NCBI GenBank assembly: GCA_030528645.1
Contig: JAUMYM010000010.1
Location: 1-46,966 of the forward strand
Length of the DNA: 46,966 nucleotides
Direction of reading: 5' to 3'
Source: Erysipelotrichaceae bacterium
Lineage (GTDB): Bacteria > Bacillota_I > Bacilli_A > Erysipelotrichales > Erysipelotrichaceae
Made by a program: the position numbers and the translations under genes. This document shows, piece after piece, positions 34,421 through 46,875 of the stretch. How positions within the stretch are numbered: the first letter of the stretch is position 1; each line of letters opens with the position of its first letter. The notes below the pieces were generated by a model. The model saw only the letters and a program-made list of their open reading frames with translations, was not told the DNA's origin and did not search any database.

Positions 34421-34441
34421 AAACGACCAAAACGGTCGTTT
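34421..34441 (-). terminator. Terminator of argS
   Basis: AAACGACC (34421-34428) pairs with GGTCGTTT (34434-34441), loop AAAAC, followed by T residues on the minus strand. It overlaps the argS stop codon. Confidence 0.8.
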
Positions 34442-36080
34442 ACATCTTTTCAGGCGCACTAATCCCTACTAAATCTAAGGCATTTGCTAATGTAATCTTA
34501 GTCGCAACTAACAAGCCTAAACGTTGATTTGTTAGTTCCGGATTACTTGCATCCATGATTTTATGAGCCCCATAGAAACTATGGAAATAGCTCGCTAATT
34601 TTTGAATGTAATTACAAATCTTATTTGGAGAACGTGTAGCTGCAGCATCACCAACTACACCAACAAATTCATTGATATACTTTAATAAATCAACTTCTTT
34701 TTCACTAGTTAATAAATCATATTTTTCAAGTGGTTTAAATTCACCAGCTTGTCTTAAAATGGAACAGATACGAGCATGTGCATATTGAGCATAGTACACC
34801 GGATTCTCATTTGTCTTTTTACGAGCTAAGCCTAAATCAAAATCTAAATGGGTATCTACCGCACGACTTACAAAGAAATAACGAGCTGCATCAATACCGA
34901 TATCATCGCATAATTCACGAATAGTAATGGCATTCCCTGTACGCTTACTCATCTTCACTTCCGCACCGTTTTCAACAAGACGAACCATTTGAATAATATC
35001 TACTTCTAAATCTTTTGGACCATAACCACAAGCTTGGATGGCTGCCACCATACGAGGAATATACCCATGGTGATCTGCACCCCAAAGATTTACTAATTTT
35101 GTATAACCACGTTCAAATTTATACATGTGATTTGCAATATCCGGTGTTAAGTATGTTAATGTGCCATCTGCTTTACGCAATACACGATCTTTATCATCGC
35201 CCCATTTTGTTGACTTAAACCATAAAGCACCATCTTCTTCATATGTTAAGCCCATTTTATTCATGCGTTCAATGATTTCATCCACACGACCATCATCGTA
35301 AAGACCTTGCTCACTTACCCAAGAATCAAAATCACAACGGTAGTAATCTAGATCTTCTTTGATTTTTTCCAATTCTTTATTACGTCCGGCTTCCTTAAAG
35401 AATTCAATACGTCCTTCTTCTTTGTGTAACCAAACATCTCCAAGCTCTTTAGCAAGTTCAATACCGATTTCTTTGACATCTTGTCCCATGTAACCATCTT
35501 CCGGAATGTCTACATGTACTCCAAAATATTCAGCATAACGAGCATAAACCGATTTACCTAAATTAATCATTTGTGCTCCGGCATCATTGATGTAGTACTC
35601 TCTTAAACAATCATACCCACTCTTCATTAATAAACGACAGATACAATCGCCCCAAGCAGCACCACGAGCATGACCTAAATGTAAGTTTCCTGTTGGATTC
35701 GCACTTACGTATTCTACTAAAATACGTAAGCCATCACCTGTGTTATTTTTGCCATAATCGCTACCTTCATTAATAACAGTGTTAATGACAGCAGCTAATG
35801 ATTCTTTCTTCATCCAGAAGTTAATAAAACCAGGACCTGCAATTTCAATCTTATCTAAGTCTTCTACCGTTTGTTCTAACTCAGCCTTGATTTCATTTGC
35901 AATCACTGCCGGTGCCTTCTTACATACTTTGGCTAAACGCATTGCAATATTTGTAGAATAATCGCCATTGGTATTATCCTTAGGGATTTCTACCATAATT
36001 AAAGAATCATCTTCTACTTGATATAGTTTTAAAACGGCATCTTTAATATTTGTTTTTAATTTTTGATCAATTTTACTCAT
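34440..36080 (-). CDS. argS: Arginyl-tRNA synthetase
   Basis: A 546-residue class I synthetase charging tRNA-Arg. The HIGH-equivalent HLGHARGAAWGD, KMSKR loop (VKMSKRTGNAI), N-terminal tRNA D-loop-binding domain and C-terminal helical domain (NPVYYAQYAHARICSILR) are complete. I start at ATG 36080; an upstream in-frame ATG at 36092 overlaps the GGAGGG site (36085-36090). An arginine T-box lies upstream, but a tRNA-Arg gene with its own promoter and a terminator stands between the T-box and this gene. Confidence 0.96.
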   Translation of the reverse strand: MSKIDQKLKTNIKDAVLKLYQVEDDSLIMVEIPKDNTNGDYSTNIAMRLAKVCKKAPAVIANEIKAELEQTVEDLDKIEIAGPGFINFWMKKESLAAVINTVINEGSDYGKNNTGDGLRILVEYVSANPTGNLHLGHARGAAWGDCICRLLMKSGYDCLREYYINDAGAQMINLGKSVYARYAEYFGVHVDIPEDGYMGQDVKEIGIELAKELGDVWLHKEEGRIEFFKEAGRNKELEKIKEDLDYYRCDFDSWVSEQGLYDDGRVDEIIERMNKMGLTYEEDGALWFKSTKWGDDKDRVLRKADGTLTYLTPDIANHMYKFERGYTKLVNLWGADHHGYIPRMVAAIQACGYGPKDLEVDIIQMVRLVENGAEVKMSKRTGNAITIRELCDDIGIDAARYFFVSRAVDTHLDFDLGLARKKTNENPVYYAQYAHARICSILRQAGEFKPLEKYDLLTSEKEVDLLKYINEFVGVVGDAAATRSPNKICNYIQKLASYFHSFYGAHKIMDASNPELTNQRLGLLVATKITLANALDLVGISAPEKM

Positions 36081-36091
36081 CTTACCCTCCA

Positions 36092-36126
36092 TATAAAATA
36101 AAAACTGTTAATATGATTAACAGTTT
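36092..36126 (-). terminator. Intrinsic terminator between tRNA-Arg and argS
   Basis: Perfect 11-bp stem AAACTGTTAAT (36102-36112) / ATTAACAGTTT (36116-36126), loop ATG, then TTTTATTTTAT on the minus strand, ending right before the argS ribosome site. It should end the tRNA transcript and would also reduce any T-box transcript reaching argS. Confidence 0.75.
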
Positions 36127-36136
36127 AATTTACTAT

Positions 36137-36213
36137 TGGCGCGCCCAGTAGGACTTGAACCCGCAACCTTTTGATCCGTAGTCAAACGCTCTATCCAGTT
36201 GAGCTATGGGCGC
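36137..36213 (-). tRNA. tRNA-Arg(ACG), copy 1
   Basis: 77 nt including an encoded CCA end; acceptor GCGCCCA/TGGGCGC, loop CTACGGA giving anticodon ACG (read as ICG after deamination). Identical over its whole length to copy 2 at 37123-37199. It lies between the T-box terminator and argS with its own promoter and terminator. Confidence 0.95.
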
Positions 36214-36225
36214 ATCTTCCTTATA

Positions 36226-36254
36226 ATAATAACAAATTAAATTCAGTTAATCAA
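36226..36254 (-). promoter_or_regulatory. Promoter of tRNA-Arg copy 1
   Basis: Minus-strand TTGATT (36249-36254), 17-bp spacer, TATTAT (36226-36231); the start would be ~6 nt before the tRNA. The -35 overlaps the end of the T-box terminator T tract. Confidence 0.55.
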
Positions 36255-36283
36255 CAAAAAAAAATCTCTTTTTACAAAGAGAC
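36253..36283 (-). terminator. T-box leader terminator
   Basis: GTCTCTTT/AAAGAGAT hairpin (minus strand; 36276-36283 and 36264-36271), loop GTAA, followed by a run of nine T. It competes with the antiterminator formed by the conserved T-box sequence next to it. Confidence 0.85.
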
Positions 36284-36469
36284 GAAAAACCGCGGTACCA
36301 CTCTAATTGCCAGTATAAAACTGACCACCTCTTTTTTAACGCAAAGTTACGCCTACCTTACTTTCATACAGCAGGATCTCCAAAGCTCGTTTCATCTAAT
36401 CACCATATCTTCTTCCACCACACAAGACTCGCTTTTATGTCACTTAGATTACTACTCTTTTTCATCGAT
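36256..36469 (-). promoter_or_regulatory. T-box riboswitch leader, specifier CGA (arginine)
   Basis: The conserved antiterminator sequence AGAGTGGTACCGCGG lies at 36290-36304 (minus strand) just before a terminator. Stem I landmarks AAAAAGAGTAGTA, GGTGGAAG and CTTTGGAG are present. Aligning GAAA-xyz-nine bases with the known glyQS specifier loop puts CGA (36387-36389) as specifier, an arginine codon, which fits argS downstream. A one-base shift would read ACG (threonine), so the codon rests on that alignment and on context. Uncharged tRNA-Arg should stabilise the antiterminator and raise downstream expression. It is unusual in being followed first by a tRNA-Arg gene. Confidence 0.9.
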
Positions 36470-36475
36470 ACATCA

Positions 36476-36504
36476 ACATTACATGAAACCTATCACAATG
36501 TCAA
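36476..36504 (-). promoter_or_regulatory. Promoter of the T-box/argS unit
   Basis: Minus-strand -35 TTGACA (36499-36504), 17-bp spacer, -10 TAATGT (36476-36481), with a start expected near 36469. Confidence 0.65.
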
Positions 36505-36533
36505 GGATAACCTAGTATTTTACAAATAAAAAA

Positions 36534-36552
36534 CACTAGAATTTATCTAGTG
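36534..36552 (-). terminator. Terminator of the seven-tRNA unit
   Basis: CACTAGA (36534-36540) pairs with TCTAGTG (36546-36552), loop of 5, then TTTTTTATTTG on the minus strand; 14 nt after tRNA-Phe. Confidence 0.8.
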
Positions 36553-36565
36553 CATTTTCTACCAA

Positions 36566-36641
36566 TGGTGGTCCCGGCCGGAATCGAACCAGCGACACAA
36601 GGATTTTCAGTCCTTTGCTCTACCGACTGAGCTACAGGACC
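36566..36641 (-). tRNA. tRNA-Phe(GAA)
   Basis: 76 nt with encoded CCA; anticodon loop CTGAAAA; acceptor GGTCCTG/CGGGACC with one T-G wobble. Last gene of the tRNA unit. Confidence 0.95.
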
Positions 36642-36643
36642 AT

Positions 36644-36720
<77 letters not shown>

Positions 36721-36751
36721 ATATTGTGTAACCAACGTTACATAAATTGAA

Positions 36752-36842
36752 TGGCGGAGGAACTGGGATTCGAACCCAGGCGCCAGTTTCCCGACCTACC
36801 GGTTTTCAAGACCGGACCCTTCAACCACTTGGGTATTCCTCC
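36752..36842 (-). tRNA. tRNA-Ser(TGA)
   Basis: 91 nt with a long variable arm and encoded CCA; anticodon loop CTTGAAA gives TGA; discriminator G, as usual for serine. Confidence 0.95.
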
Positions 36843-36859
36843 ATAATTTGTCAATTGAT

Positions 36860-36936
36860 TGGTGGACCCTGTAGGACTCGAACCTACGACCAACCGGTTA
36901 TGAGCCGGTAGCTCTGACCAACTGAGCTAAGGGTCC
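36860..36936 (-). tRNA. tRNA with CAT anticodon, probably tRNA-Ile2 (lysidine)
   Basis: 77 nt with encoded CCA; loop CTCATAA. The body GGACCCTTAGCTCAGTTGG resembles bacterial tRNA-Ile2, which reads AUA after TilS changes C34 to lysidine, rather than elongator Met, which is the next gene. Ile2 identity is by recalled resemblance. Confidence 0.8.
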
Positions 36937-36945
36937 TCACTAAAA

Positions 36946-37022
36946 TGGTAGCGAGGGTGGGACTCGAACCCACGACCTTCCGGGTATGAACCGAACGCTC
37001 TAGCCAACTAAGCTACCTCGCC
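36946..37022 (-). tRNA. tRNA-Met(CAT), elongator
   Basis: 77 nt with encoded CCA; CGGTTCATACCCG anticodon arm is like Bacillus elongator Met. Acceptor GGCGAGG/CCTCGCT with a terminal G-T wobble. Confidence 0.85.
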
Positions 37023-37035
37023 AGCTTAATTTAAC

Positions 37036-37112
37036 TGGTCGGGATGACAGGATTTGAACCTGCGACCCCTTGATCCCAAATCAAGTGCACTACCAAGCTG
37101 TGCTACATCCCG
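37036..37112 (-). tRNA. tRNA-Pro(TGG)
   Basis: 77 nt with encoded CCA; loop TTTGGGA gives TGG; C1-G72 pair in CGGGATG/CATCCCG is typical of proline. Confidence 0.95.
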
Positions 37113-37122
37113 TTAAATTAAA

Positions 37123-37199
37123 TGGCGCGCCCAGTAGGACTTGAACCCGCAACCTTTTGATCCGTAGTCAAACGCTCTATCCAGTTGAGCTATGGGCGC
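37123..37199 (-). tRNA. tRNA-Arg(ACG), copy 2
   Basis: 77 nt with encoded CCA, identical to copy 1 at 36137-36213. First gene of the seven-tRNA unit Arg-Pro-Met-Ile2-Ser-fMet-Phe. Confidence 0.95.
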
Positions 37200-37226
37200 A
37201 CATACACTAGTTAACAGTGCTTAATT

Positions 37227-37255
37227 ATGATAACAAATTTTAATCGTTATTGCAA
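37227..37255 (-). promoter_or_regulatory. Promoter of the seven-tRNA unit
   Basis: Minus-strand TTGCAA (37250-37255), 17-bp spacer, TATCAT (37227-37232), ~28 bp before tRNA-Arg copy 2. Confidence 0.6.
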
Positions 37256-37312
37256 GTTATTTTTGTAAATTAATCAAAATAATTTTTGTCATCAAAACAC
37301 AGTAAATAAAAA

Positions 37313-37331
37313 AATCTTTTCCTCAAAGATT
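37313..37331 (-). terminator. Terminator after tRNA-Leu
   Basis: AATCTTT/AAAGATT stem (37313-37319, 37325-37331), followed by a T run on the minus strand; 13 nt after tRNA-Leu. Confidence 0.7.
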
Positions 37332-37343
37332 CTTTTAACAAAA

Positions 37344-37430
37344 TGGTGGGGATGAAGGGACTTGAACCCTTACGATGTTTCCATCACCGGATTTTAAGTC
37401 CGATGCGTCTACCTATTCCGCCACATCCCC
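37344..37430 (-). tRNA. tRNA-Leu(TAA)
   Basis: 87 nt with long variable arm and encoded CCA; loop CTTAAAA gives TAA; acceptor GGGGATG/CATCCCC, discriminator A. Confidence 0.95.
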
Positions 37431-37434
37431 ATTT

Positions 37435-37508
37435 TGGAGGTTCCTATCAGATTTGAACTGATGATCACAGAGTTGCAGTCTATTGCCTTACCACTTGGCT
37501 AAGGAACC
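37435..37508 (-). tRNA. tRNA-Cys(GCA)
   Basis: 74 nt with encoded CCA; loop CTGCAAC gives GCA; discriminator T (U73) is the cysteine identity base. Confidence 0.95.
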
Positions 37509-44597: not shown

Positions 44598-45593
44598 ATG
44601 AAAAACAAAGCATTTAAAACCATATTAATTAGTCTATGTACTTTCATTGTGGCACTCATGGTTATCTTTAGTTTTCTAATTTATCAAAGACAACAAAGAG
44701 AAAAAGAACTTCAAAGTCCAGAGTATGCCATTAAACAATACATACACGAGATACAAAACAATACATTTGATCAAATCTATCAAAATTCTATCTATCTATA
44801 TCACAATCATTCAAGTCAACAAGAATTAAGTGATGCCTTAAGCAAGATATATCAAAACATCAATATCAAGACGTTAAAAATCAAAGATCAACAAGTCTAC
44901 GAAGATGGCTATCGTTATACACTATACCAAAACAATGAAGTAGTGAGTCAGGTAATGGTAAAATCCTATAACGACCACTATCTTGTAGCTACACTTTTAG
45001 AAAATGAAGTAACAACCTACATTGAATCTTTACCAAATGTATCCTTTACTATCAATGATTATGGAATAGATGATGTCAAGCCAAAAGAAATCACAGCCAC
45101 TAATTTTGAAGGATTAGAGGTTGATAATGCACCTACTATACTGCAATATACAATTGAAACCTTATCCAAGACACCAAATATTGCCTTACCAAATGGCTAT
45201 ACTTTCTTAAAAGACCTTGATGAACCCAAGATTTATATCGGCAAATTGGAAACCAATACCGGTTTACACGATTTATTTATCAATGCCATTGAAGTCTTTC
45301 ACAGTGTCATAATTAATAAAAACTGGGATAAACCACTTTATAGCATCAGTATTCCAGACTCTGCCTTTTTAAACCAAGTCAAAGAGGGTTATCCACAACT
45401 ACAAACCTTAGAAAAAGGTCATCTTGAACATATCTACTTCAGTGACATTTTAAAACAAAGTGAGGATAGCATGATGGCTCATGTTACCTTTGATTATGTC
45501 ACTAAAAATGATACGAAAACCTTTACCTATCAAATCATTTTCTTAAAACATCAAGGTATTTATAAAATAGCTCAACTAAAAATAGAACCATAG
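44598..45593 (+). CDS. Membrane-anchored protein of unknown function, 331 aa
   Basis: One N-terminal membrane helix (about 9-28, ILISLCTFIVALMVIFSFLI) with a basic N-terminus, then a ~300-residue extracellular part. It starts with helical SPEYAIKQYIHEIQNNTFDQIYQ, similar to short domains in peptidoglycan or penicillin-binding protein accessory regions (NTF2-like shape), but this is only impression. No catalytic motif seen. Good AAAAGGGG site before ATG, own terminator. Divergent from aldose epimerase. Confidence 0.75.
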   Translation: MKNKAFKTILISLCTFIVALMVIFSFLIYQRQQREKELQSPEYAIKQYIHEIQNNTFDQIYQNSIYLYHNHSSQQELSDALSKIYQNINIKTLKIKDQQVYEDGYRYTLYQNNEVVSQVMVKSYNDHYLVATLLENEVTTYIESLPNVSFTINDYGIDDVKPKEITATNFEGLEVDNAPTILQYTIETLSKTPNIALPNGYTFLKDLDEPKIYIGKLETNTGLHDLFINAIEVFHSVIINKNWDKPLYSISIPDSAFLNQVKEGYPQLQTLEKGHLEHIYFSDILKQSEDSMMAHVTFDYVTKNDTKTFTYQIIFLKHQGIYKIAQLKIEP

Positions 45594-46685: not shown

Positions 46686-46713
46686 ACACTCCTCTTTCCT
46701 AGTCAGCTATCAA

Positions 46714-46740
46714 AAAGACACTCTAAGAAAGAGTGTCTTT
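46714..46740 (-). terminator. Terminator of the metK leader
   Basis: AAAGACACTCT (46714-46724) / AGAGTGTCTTT (46730-46740), followed by TTTTTG on the minus strand. It is mutually exclusive with the antiterminator of the riboswitch. Confidence 0.85.
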
Positions 46741-46835
46741 ATTTTTCATTCTTCCTTATCCATGTTAGTTGTACCACCTTACAGTTGCAGGTTGGTGTGA
46801 TCTACGAGCTAACCCTCTAAACCACTCTTGATAAA
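46714..46835 (-). promoter_or_regulatory. SAM-responsive (S-box-like) riboswitch, compact variant
   Basis: Leader of metK. The minus strand starts TTATCAAGAGTGG, the S-box opening, and closes with GATAAG: P1 pairs 46830-46835 with 46755-46760. Hand folding gives P2 GUGGU/AUCAC with GAG/CUC above, a pseudoknot GUUAG-CUAAC, and P3 ACCU/AGGU. No P4 helix separates the pseudoknot strand from P1. Antiterminator UAAGGAAGA (46750-46758) is complementary over nine bases to UCUUUCUUA (46724-46732) in the terminator, and overlaps P1, so SAM binding should favour termination. Confidence 0.8.
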
Positions 46836-46846
46836 TGACCGCTATA

Positions 46847-46875
46847 TTTATAACATACCTATCAAAATAATTCAA
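46847..46875 (-). promoter_or_regulatory. Promoter of the metK riboswitch transcript
   Basis: Minus-strand -35 TTGAAT (46870-46875), 17-bp spacer, -10 TATAAA (46847-46852); start expected a few bases before the aptamer. Confidence 0.6.

Follow-up and report, generated by a model that had tools for sequence, protein, structure and literature searches.

Reading the metK leader of an Erysipelotrichaceae bacterium beside those of its relatives, we find a conserved SAM-I-type riboswitch without a P4 helix, which very likely turns metK off when S-adenosylmethionine (SAM) is high. The leader lies near the end of a 46,966-nt stretch of contig JAUMYM010000010.1, hereafter the window. The element is closest to SAM-I by sequence and is predicted to work in the same way, yet the window copy falls outside that class in the strict sense, because it has no P4 and scores under the Rfam threshold.

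Organisation of the metK leader

The aptamer, an intrinsic terminator and metK follow one another in this order on the - strand (Table 1), and the elements named by the original prediction (P1, P2, a GUUAG/CUAAC pseudoknot and a short P3 in about 81 nt, with no P4) were all located there. Folded together with its terminator, the leader is more stable than each of 200 shuffled sequences (z = -3.4). Scans with RF00162 and with R1, a model built from the alignment of relatives described below, found one such element in the whole 1.38-Mb genome. A strict consensus promoter scan reported nothing on the - strand, including the TTGAAT-17-TATAAA that we read as a likely promoter; promoter-like hexamers occur in similar placement in the leaders of relatives.

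Table 1. Features of the metK leader and its gene, with positions in the window.
Feature	Position	Strand	Evidence or remark
Likely sigma-70-type promoter	46847-46875	-	TTGAAT (46870-46875), 17 nt, TATAAA (46847-46852); read from sequence
P4-less SAM-I-type aptamer, 81 nt	46755-46835	-	RF00162 33.6 bits, R1 78.6 bits (window sequence in training set), covariation
P1 UUUAUC/GAUAAG	5' strand 46830-46835 with 3' strand 46755-46760	-	Sequence and covariation
P2 arm	46797-46825	-	Covariation and folding; k-turn position degenerate in window copy
P2 lower stem	46822-46825 with 46797-46800	-	
P2 upper stem GAG/CUC	46815-46817 with 46806-46808	-	
Pseudoknot 5' strand GUUAG (P2 loop)	46809-46813	-	Pairs with CUAAC
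P3 with SAM-pocket words ACCAACC/GGUGGU	46773-46796	-	SAM-I pair G43-C59 flipped to C-G; numbering of PMC3764141
Pseudoknot 3' strand CUAAC	46764-46768	-	3 nt ahead of P1 3' strand
Antiterminator 5' strand TAAGGAAGA	46750-46758	-	Overlaps P1 3' strand; tendency conserved in relatives
Antiterminator 3' strand TCTTTCTTA	46724-46732	-	Within terminator 5' arm and loop
Intrinsic terminator, 46712-46740	Hairpin 46714-46740, U tract 46712-46716	-	Hairpin about -14 kcal/mol
Shine-Dalgarno-like GAGGAG before metK	46689-46694	-	
metK, S-adenosylmethionine synthetase, 362 aa	45597-46685	-	All three Pfam S-AdoMet_synt domains; NCBIfam TIGR01034 495 bits, over cut-off

When a longer leader was folded, the minimum free energy structure paired the 5' side of P1, UAUCAAGA, with UUUUUGAUA at and after the U tract (46706-46716 with 46827-46834, - strand); this pairing is probably chance, because it is located past the terminator. 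Convergent with metK, and ending about 4 bases from it, is a gene for a 331-aa protein with a weak MecA_N (NTF2-like) domain (44598-45593, + strand). Elsewhere in the window, a T-box leader (112.9 bits; 36275-36474, - strand) precedes argS (34440-36092, - strand), with a tRNA gene at 36140-36213 between them and a cluster of ten tRNA hits over 36140-37508.

The P4 helix is absent

In the window, the linker from the pseudoknot strand to P1 consists of just AU (2 nt) and G46761, and therefore no P4 is possible. At curated thresholds, the Rfam scan of the window returned T-box and tRNA matches and no SAM match. A permissive scan found RF00162 (SAM) at 33.6 bits (E = 3.4e-6), below its gathering score of 44.4 bits, and in that alignment the modelled P4 consisted mostly of non-pairs. 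This match, the folding against shuffles and the covariation described below show the element to be more than a chance resemblance. Among 108 distinct relatives of the window's form, P4 was absent from all 108. The suggestion that this is a reduced form poorly covered by existing models is supported by these scores and by the uniform lack of the helix, and also by the covarying pseudoknot and the conserved terminator and antiterminator described below.

A regular-expression classifier had assigned P4 to about 20 members of this form with a short P1. These assignments were wrong and were discarded, because reading the sequences showed the pseudoknot strand running into P1; the classifier's counts for the GCAACC form, introduced below, are left out.

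RF00162 was the top SAM-clan match in every scan, with no other clan family scoring higher, and many P4-less relatives exceed its threshold, P4 being skipped through a local end. These observations favour the reading that the element is an ordinary SAM-I riboswitch with a merely optional P4, already within RF00162 and with nothing separating it from known members. We consider this rather unlikely, since many other relatives, like the window copy, fall under the threshold, and since the group has its own consensus over 58 sequences (C43-G59, A27-U66, G64-C85 and a five-pair pseudoknot). Moreover, a published test that tells SAM-I from SAM-IV calls SAM-I by a P4 hairpin, a k-turn and no additional pseudoknot (PMC7270179), and here a linker of 2-3 nt stands in place of the P4 hairpin.

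The structure covaries among relatives

We fetched MetK homologues from the window's family and read their leaders. Nearly all carry UUAUCAAGA, the P2 upper stem GAG/CUC, the loop AGUUAG, CCAACC...GGUGG and GCUAAC, followed by two or three bases, GAUAA, a terminator and metK. Named carriers in the Erysipelotrichaceae are Faecalicoccus pleomorphus DSM 20574, F. acidiformans and Faecalitalea cylindroides ATCC 27803. The outgroup leaders came from Clostridia whose MetK is similar; these are SAM-I leaders that contain GCAACC/GGUGC and a normal P4.

We aligned 58 sequences (alignment A1) and scored them against the named structure including the pseudoknot. Pairing held in 97.0% of cells, and two-sided changes, whose counts are inflated by kinship among the sequences, occurred in 15 of 26 pairs (n = 58). 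The covariation score was 0.241 versus 0.130 in shuffles, and none of 500 shuffles reached the observed values. When the structure was slid by 1-3 columns, a control that preserves relatedness, pairing dropped to 26-49%. The pseudoknot, whose covariation in the metK leaders of relatives had been put forward as a check, does covary: 98.3% of its cells are paired, and four of its five pairs show two-sided changes.

R1, built from A1, recovers members at about 65-98 bits. The R1 score of the window copy, which was itself in the training set, and its RF00162 score both lie towards the group's lower end. Over 196 genomes of the order, R1 found 103 elements scoring 66.8 bits or more, spread over 102 genomes, all from the window's family, and no match in the sister family f2; across the class it found further members in other families (f11, f12, f15 and f22). 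Canonical P4-bearing SAM-I is also present in the window's family (L032-L041), where two metK lineages were noted: genes about 60-70% identical to the window's mostly have the P4-less leader (L002-L030), and in a lineage about 50% identical, at least two genomes have the canonical leader with P4 (L036, L037, L042).

The SAM pocket is conserved and three SAM-I pairs are replaced

With the numbering of T. tengcongensis taken from PMC3764141 and our own mapping of it onto A1, the SAM-contacting U7, G11, C44, A45, U57 and G58 show no variation among the 58 sequences, and A6, A12, A46, C47 and G56 are equally invariant. Where pairs depart from SAM-I, both partners have changed. The SAM-I pair G43-C59 is C-G in 58 of 58, so that pairing is kept, and G27-C66 is A-U in 57. 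U64-A85, part of the (A85-U64)-A24 triple in SAM-I (PMC9580860), is G-C in 49 of the 58; its covariation within A1 is weak, with a single two-sided change, and we therefore use this pair only as a replacement relative to SAM-I. Positions A61 and A62 of J3/4, which SAM-I uses (A62 with G23-C29), show no conservation in the 58, and the J3/4 contact may hence differ from that of SAM-I.

The kink-turn in P2 appears degenerate in the window's genus

Most relatives retain the k-turn bases, with A at 1n and, opposite GA, a 2n that is U, G or A; across the 58 sequences, 1n and 2b are A in all, and 1b is G in 47. One natural k-turn, Kt-23 (cited in PMC3651934), is known to have U at 2n; the k-turn is described as setting the course of P2 so that its loop can make its contact (PMC3651934). 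In the window's genus the k-turn appears degenerate: P2 of the window scores -10.0 kcal/mol when closed as a continuous helix that bulges a single base versus -4.4 kcal/mol with an open k-turn loop, a preference of 5.6 kcal/mol under an energy model in which G-A pairs earn nothing. The P2 strands of L011 are likewise able to pair continuously with a one-base bulge. Because P2 can close in this way, a k-turn in the window copy is doubtful on these folding energies, and the continuous helix counts as grounds for doubt and not as a demonstration, since the energy model ignores G-A pairs.

P1 and the terminator are predicted to compete through an antiterminator

The proposed terminator and the nine-base antiterminator overlapping P1 are both present in the window. 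TAAGGAAGA and TCTTTCTTA can form nine pairs, one of them G-U. Folded to mid-terminator, the window RNA is predicted to form the antiterminator with P1 broken; folded to the U tract, the whole leader forms the terminator. Structures with P1 and the terminator enforced reach -34.6 kcal/mol, versus -30.1 kcal/mol with the antiterminator enforced. This arrangement is conserved: a terminator hairpin follows in 99 of 108 relatives, and the pairing of the P1 3' strand with the terminator arm of the same leader averages -7.8 kcal/mol, versus -5.0 with the arm of another species and -4.6 with scrambled letters.

At least 93 of the 108 elements precede a metK recognised by tblastn, a count biased by loci that were fetched via metK, and loci fetched by the RNA alone show the linkage too. 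The start codon lies a median of 80 nt past the start of the P1 3' strand. Other elements of the 108 precede metN-like methionine transporter genes. In L091 (613-1401, - strand), L052 and L275-L277, P4-less elements precede a protein of about 260 aa. The L091 protein, the one compared with domain models, matched S-adenosylmethionine synthetase in the N-terminal domain alone (Pfam 32.4 bits, slightly below cut-off; TIGR01034 44 bits) and may be a SAM synthetase relative that has diverged or been truncated.

Judged from these sequence patterns, the leader is very likely a SAM-sensing OFF switch that would control metK by transcription attenuation through a SAM-I binding core without P4. Sequence and comparison establish the fold, the missing P4, the conserved pocket, the association with metK and a potential competition of terminator and antiterminator; from these we infer the ligand, the OFF direction and a compensating role of the pseudoknot. 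The k-turn of the window's genus and the unconserved A61 and A62 of J3/4 speak against this reading. In our model, when SAM is plentiful it would bind between P1 and P3 and hold the pseudoknot and P1; with the P1 3' strand occupied, the terminator would form ahead of metK. At low SAM, the 3' strand of P1 would instead pair with the terminator 5' arm, forming the antiterminator, and metK would be transcribed. With its five Watson-Crick pairs, the pseudoknot probably lends stability to the P4-less fold.

The window copy might instead be decaying or constitutive, with a persisting fold and weak SAM control as P4 and the k-turn are both gone, and its position towards the lower end of the group's scores, together with the P2 of its genus favouring a continuous helix, points that way. 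This appears improbable, given that the pocket nucleotides, the pseudoknot, the terminator and the antiterminator are all intact; the aptamer of the sister species is also nearly unchanged, with differences in the P3 loop, although such closeness says little.

A second P4-less kind of leader

Several families of Bacilli commonly carry another P4-less kind, marked by GCAACC/GGUGC and by a CAAG/CUUG pseudoknot (L061, L084, L085, L289, L293, L296 and others). Like the window's form, its leaders (L061, L085, L289) lack P4, and the pseudoknot strand runs almost straight into P1; unlike it, they keep G43-C59, have CCAU/AUGG as P1 and precede other genes. Some of these genes have no obvious link to SAM, for instance gltX (L293) and priA (L281). 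Since this second kind is found in other Bacilli families and also in the window's family (L061, L085), the loss of P4 may have happened repeatedly. The L304 leader, whose SAM-I words are otherwise canonical (GGUGCUAAUUCCUA AAGAUAAG), has no P4 either and stands before a metN-like ABC ATPase gene, which suggests an independent loss.

Comparison with known SAM-clan riboswitches

The window's form shares with SAM-I (RF00162) P1, J1/2 with G11-A12, the split P2, the pseudoknot between the P2 loop and J3/4, P3 with C44-A45-A46-C47 and G56-U57-G58, the metK/metN regulon and terminator/antiterminator control. It differs from SAM-I in lacking P4, in the replacements at 43-59, 27-66 and 64-85, in a pseudoknot made of five Watson-Crick pairs, in a k-turn 2n that is often U, and in the score of the window copy below the gathering score.

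SAM-IV (RF00634) has no P4 and adds P5 and PK-2, whereas SAM-I/IV (RF01725) has P4, an unsplit P2 and no PK-1 (PMC6890682). With SAM-IV, the window's form has in common the SAM core, PK-1 and the missing P4, and the shared pocket (PMC6890682) might invite assignment to SAM-IV or to SAM-I/IV. We regard such an assignment as highly improbable. A terminator, and not P5 with a PK-2 strand, comes after P1; no SAM-IV-type P5 or PK-2, and no complement to the P3 loop, was seen on reading the window leader; and in some relatives the P3 loop has just a few nucleotides. SAM-I/IV, with which only the SAM core is shared, carries P4 and a PK-2 subdomain and lacks PK-1; the present form is without P4 and has a PK-1 that covaries. 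In no scan did either family come out as the top clan match, and the SAM-I/IV-type reading offered by the original prediction is accordingly dropped.

Having no P4 and no visible SAM-IV-type P5 or PK-2, the form can be described as core-only. We tentatively suggest, at somewhat less than even chances, that it represents a fourth SAM-clan architecture that has a consensus of its own, is widespread in Erysipelotrichaceae and in other Bacilli families, and has also lost the k-turn in some genera, including the window's. If so, the form lacking both k-turn and P4 would rank among the smallest natural SAM-I-type aptamers. We found no description of a P4-less SAM-I in the open-access papers searched.

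Annotation by the Rfam threshold would miss many metK leaders of this common gut family, which score under it; R1 recovers them. SAM-I, SAM-I/IV and SAM-IV place one SAM pocket within differing outer scaffolds, and a natural form without P4 and without P5/PK-2 would show which parts of the scaffold are dispensable and allow the contributions of P4 and the k-turn to be tested cleanly.
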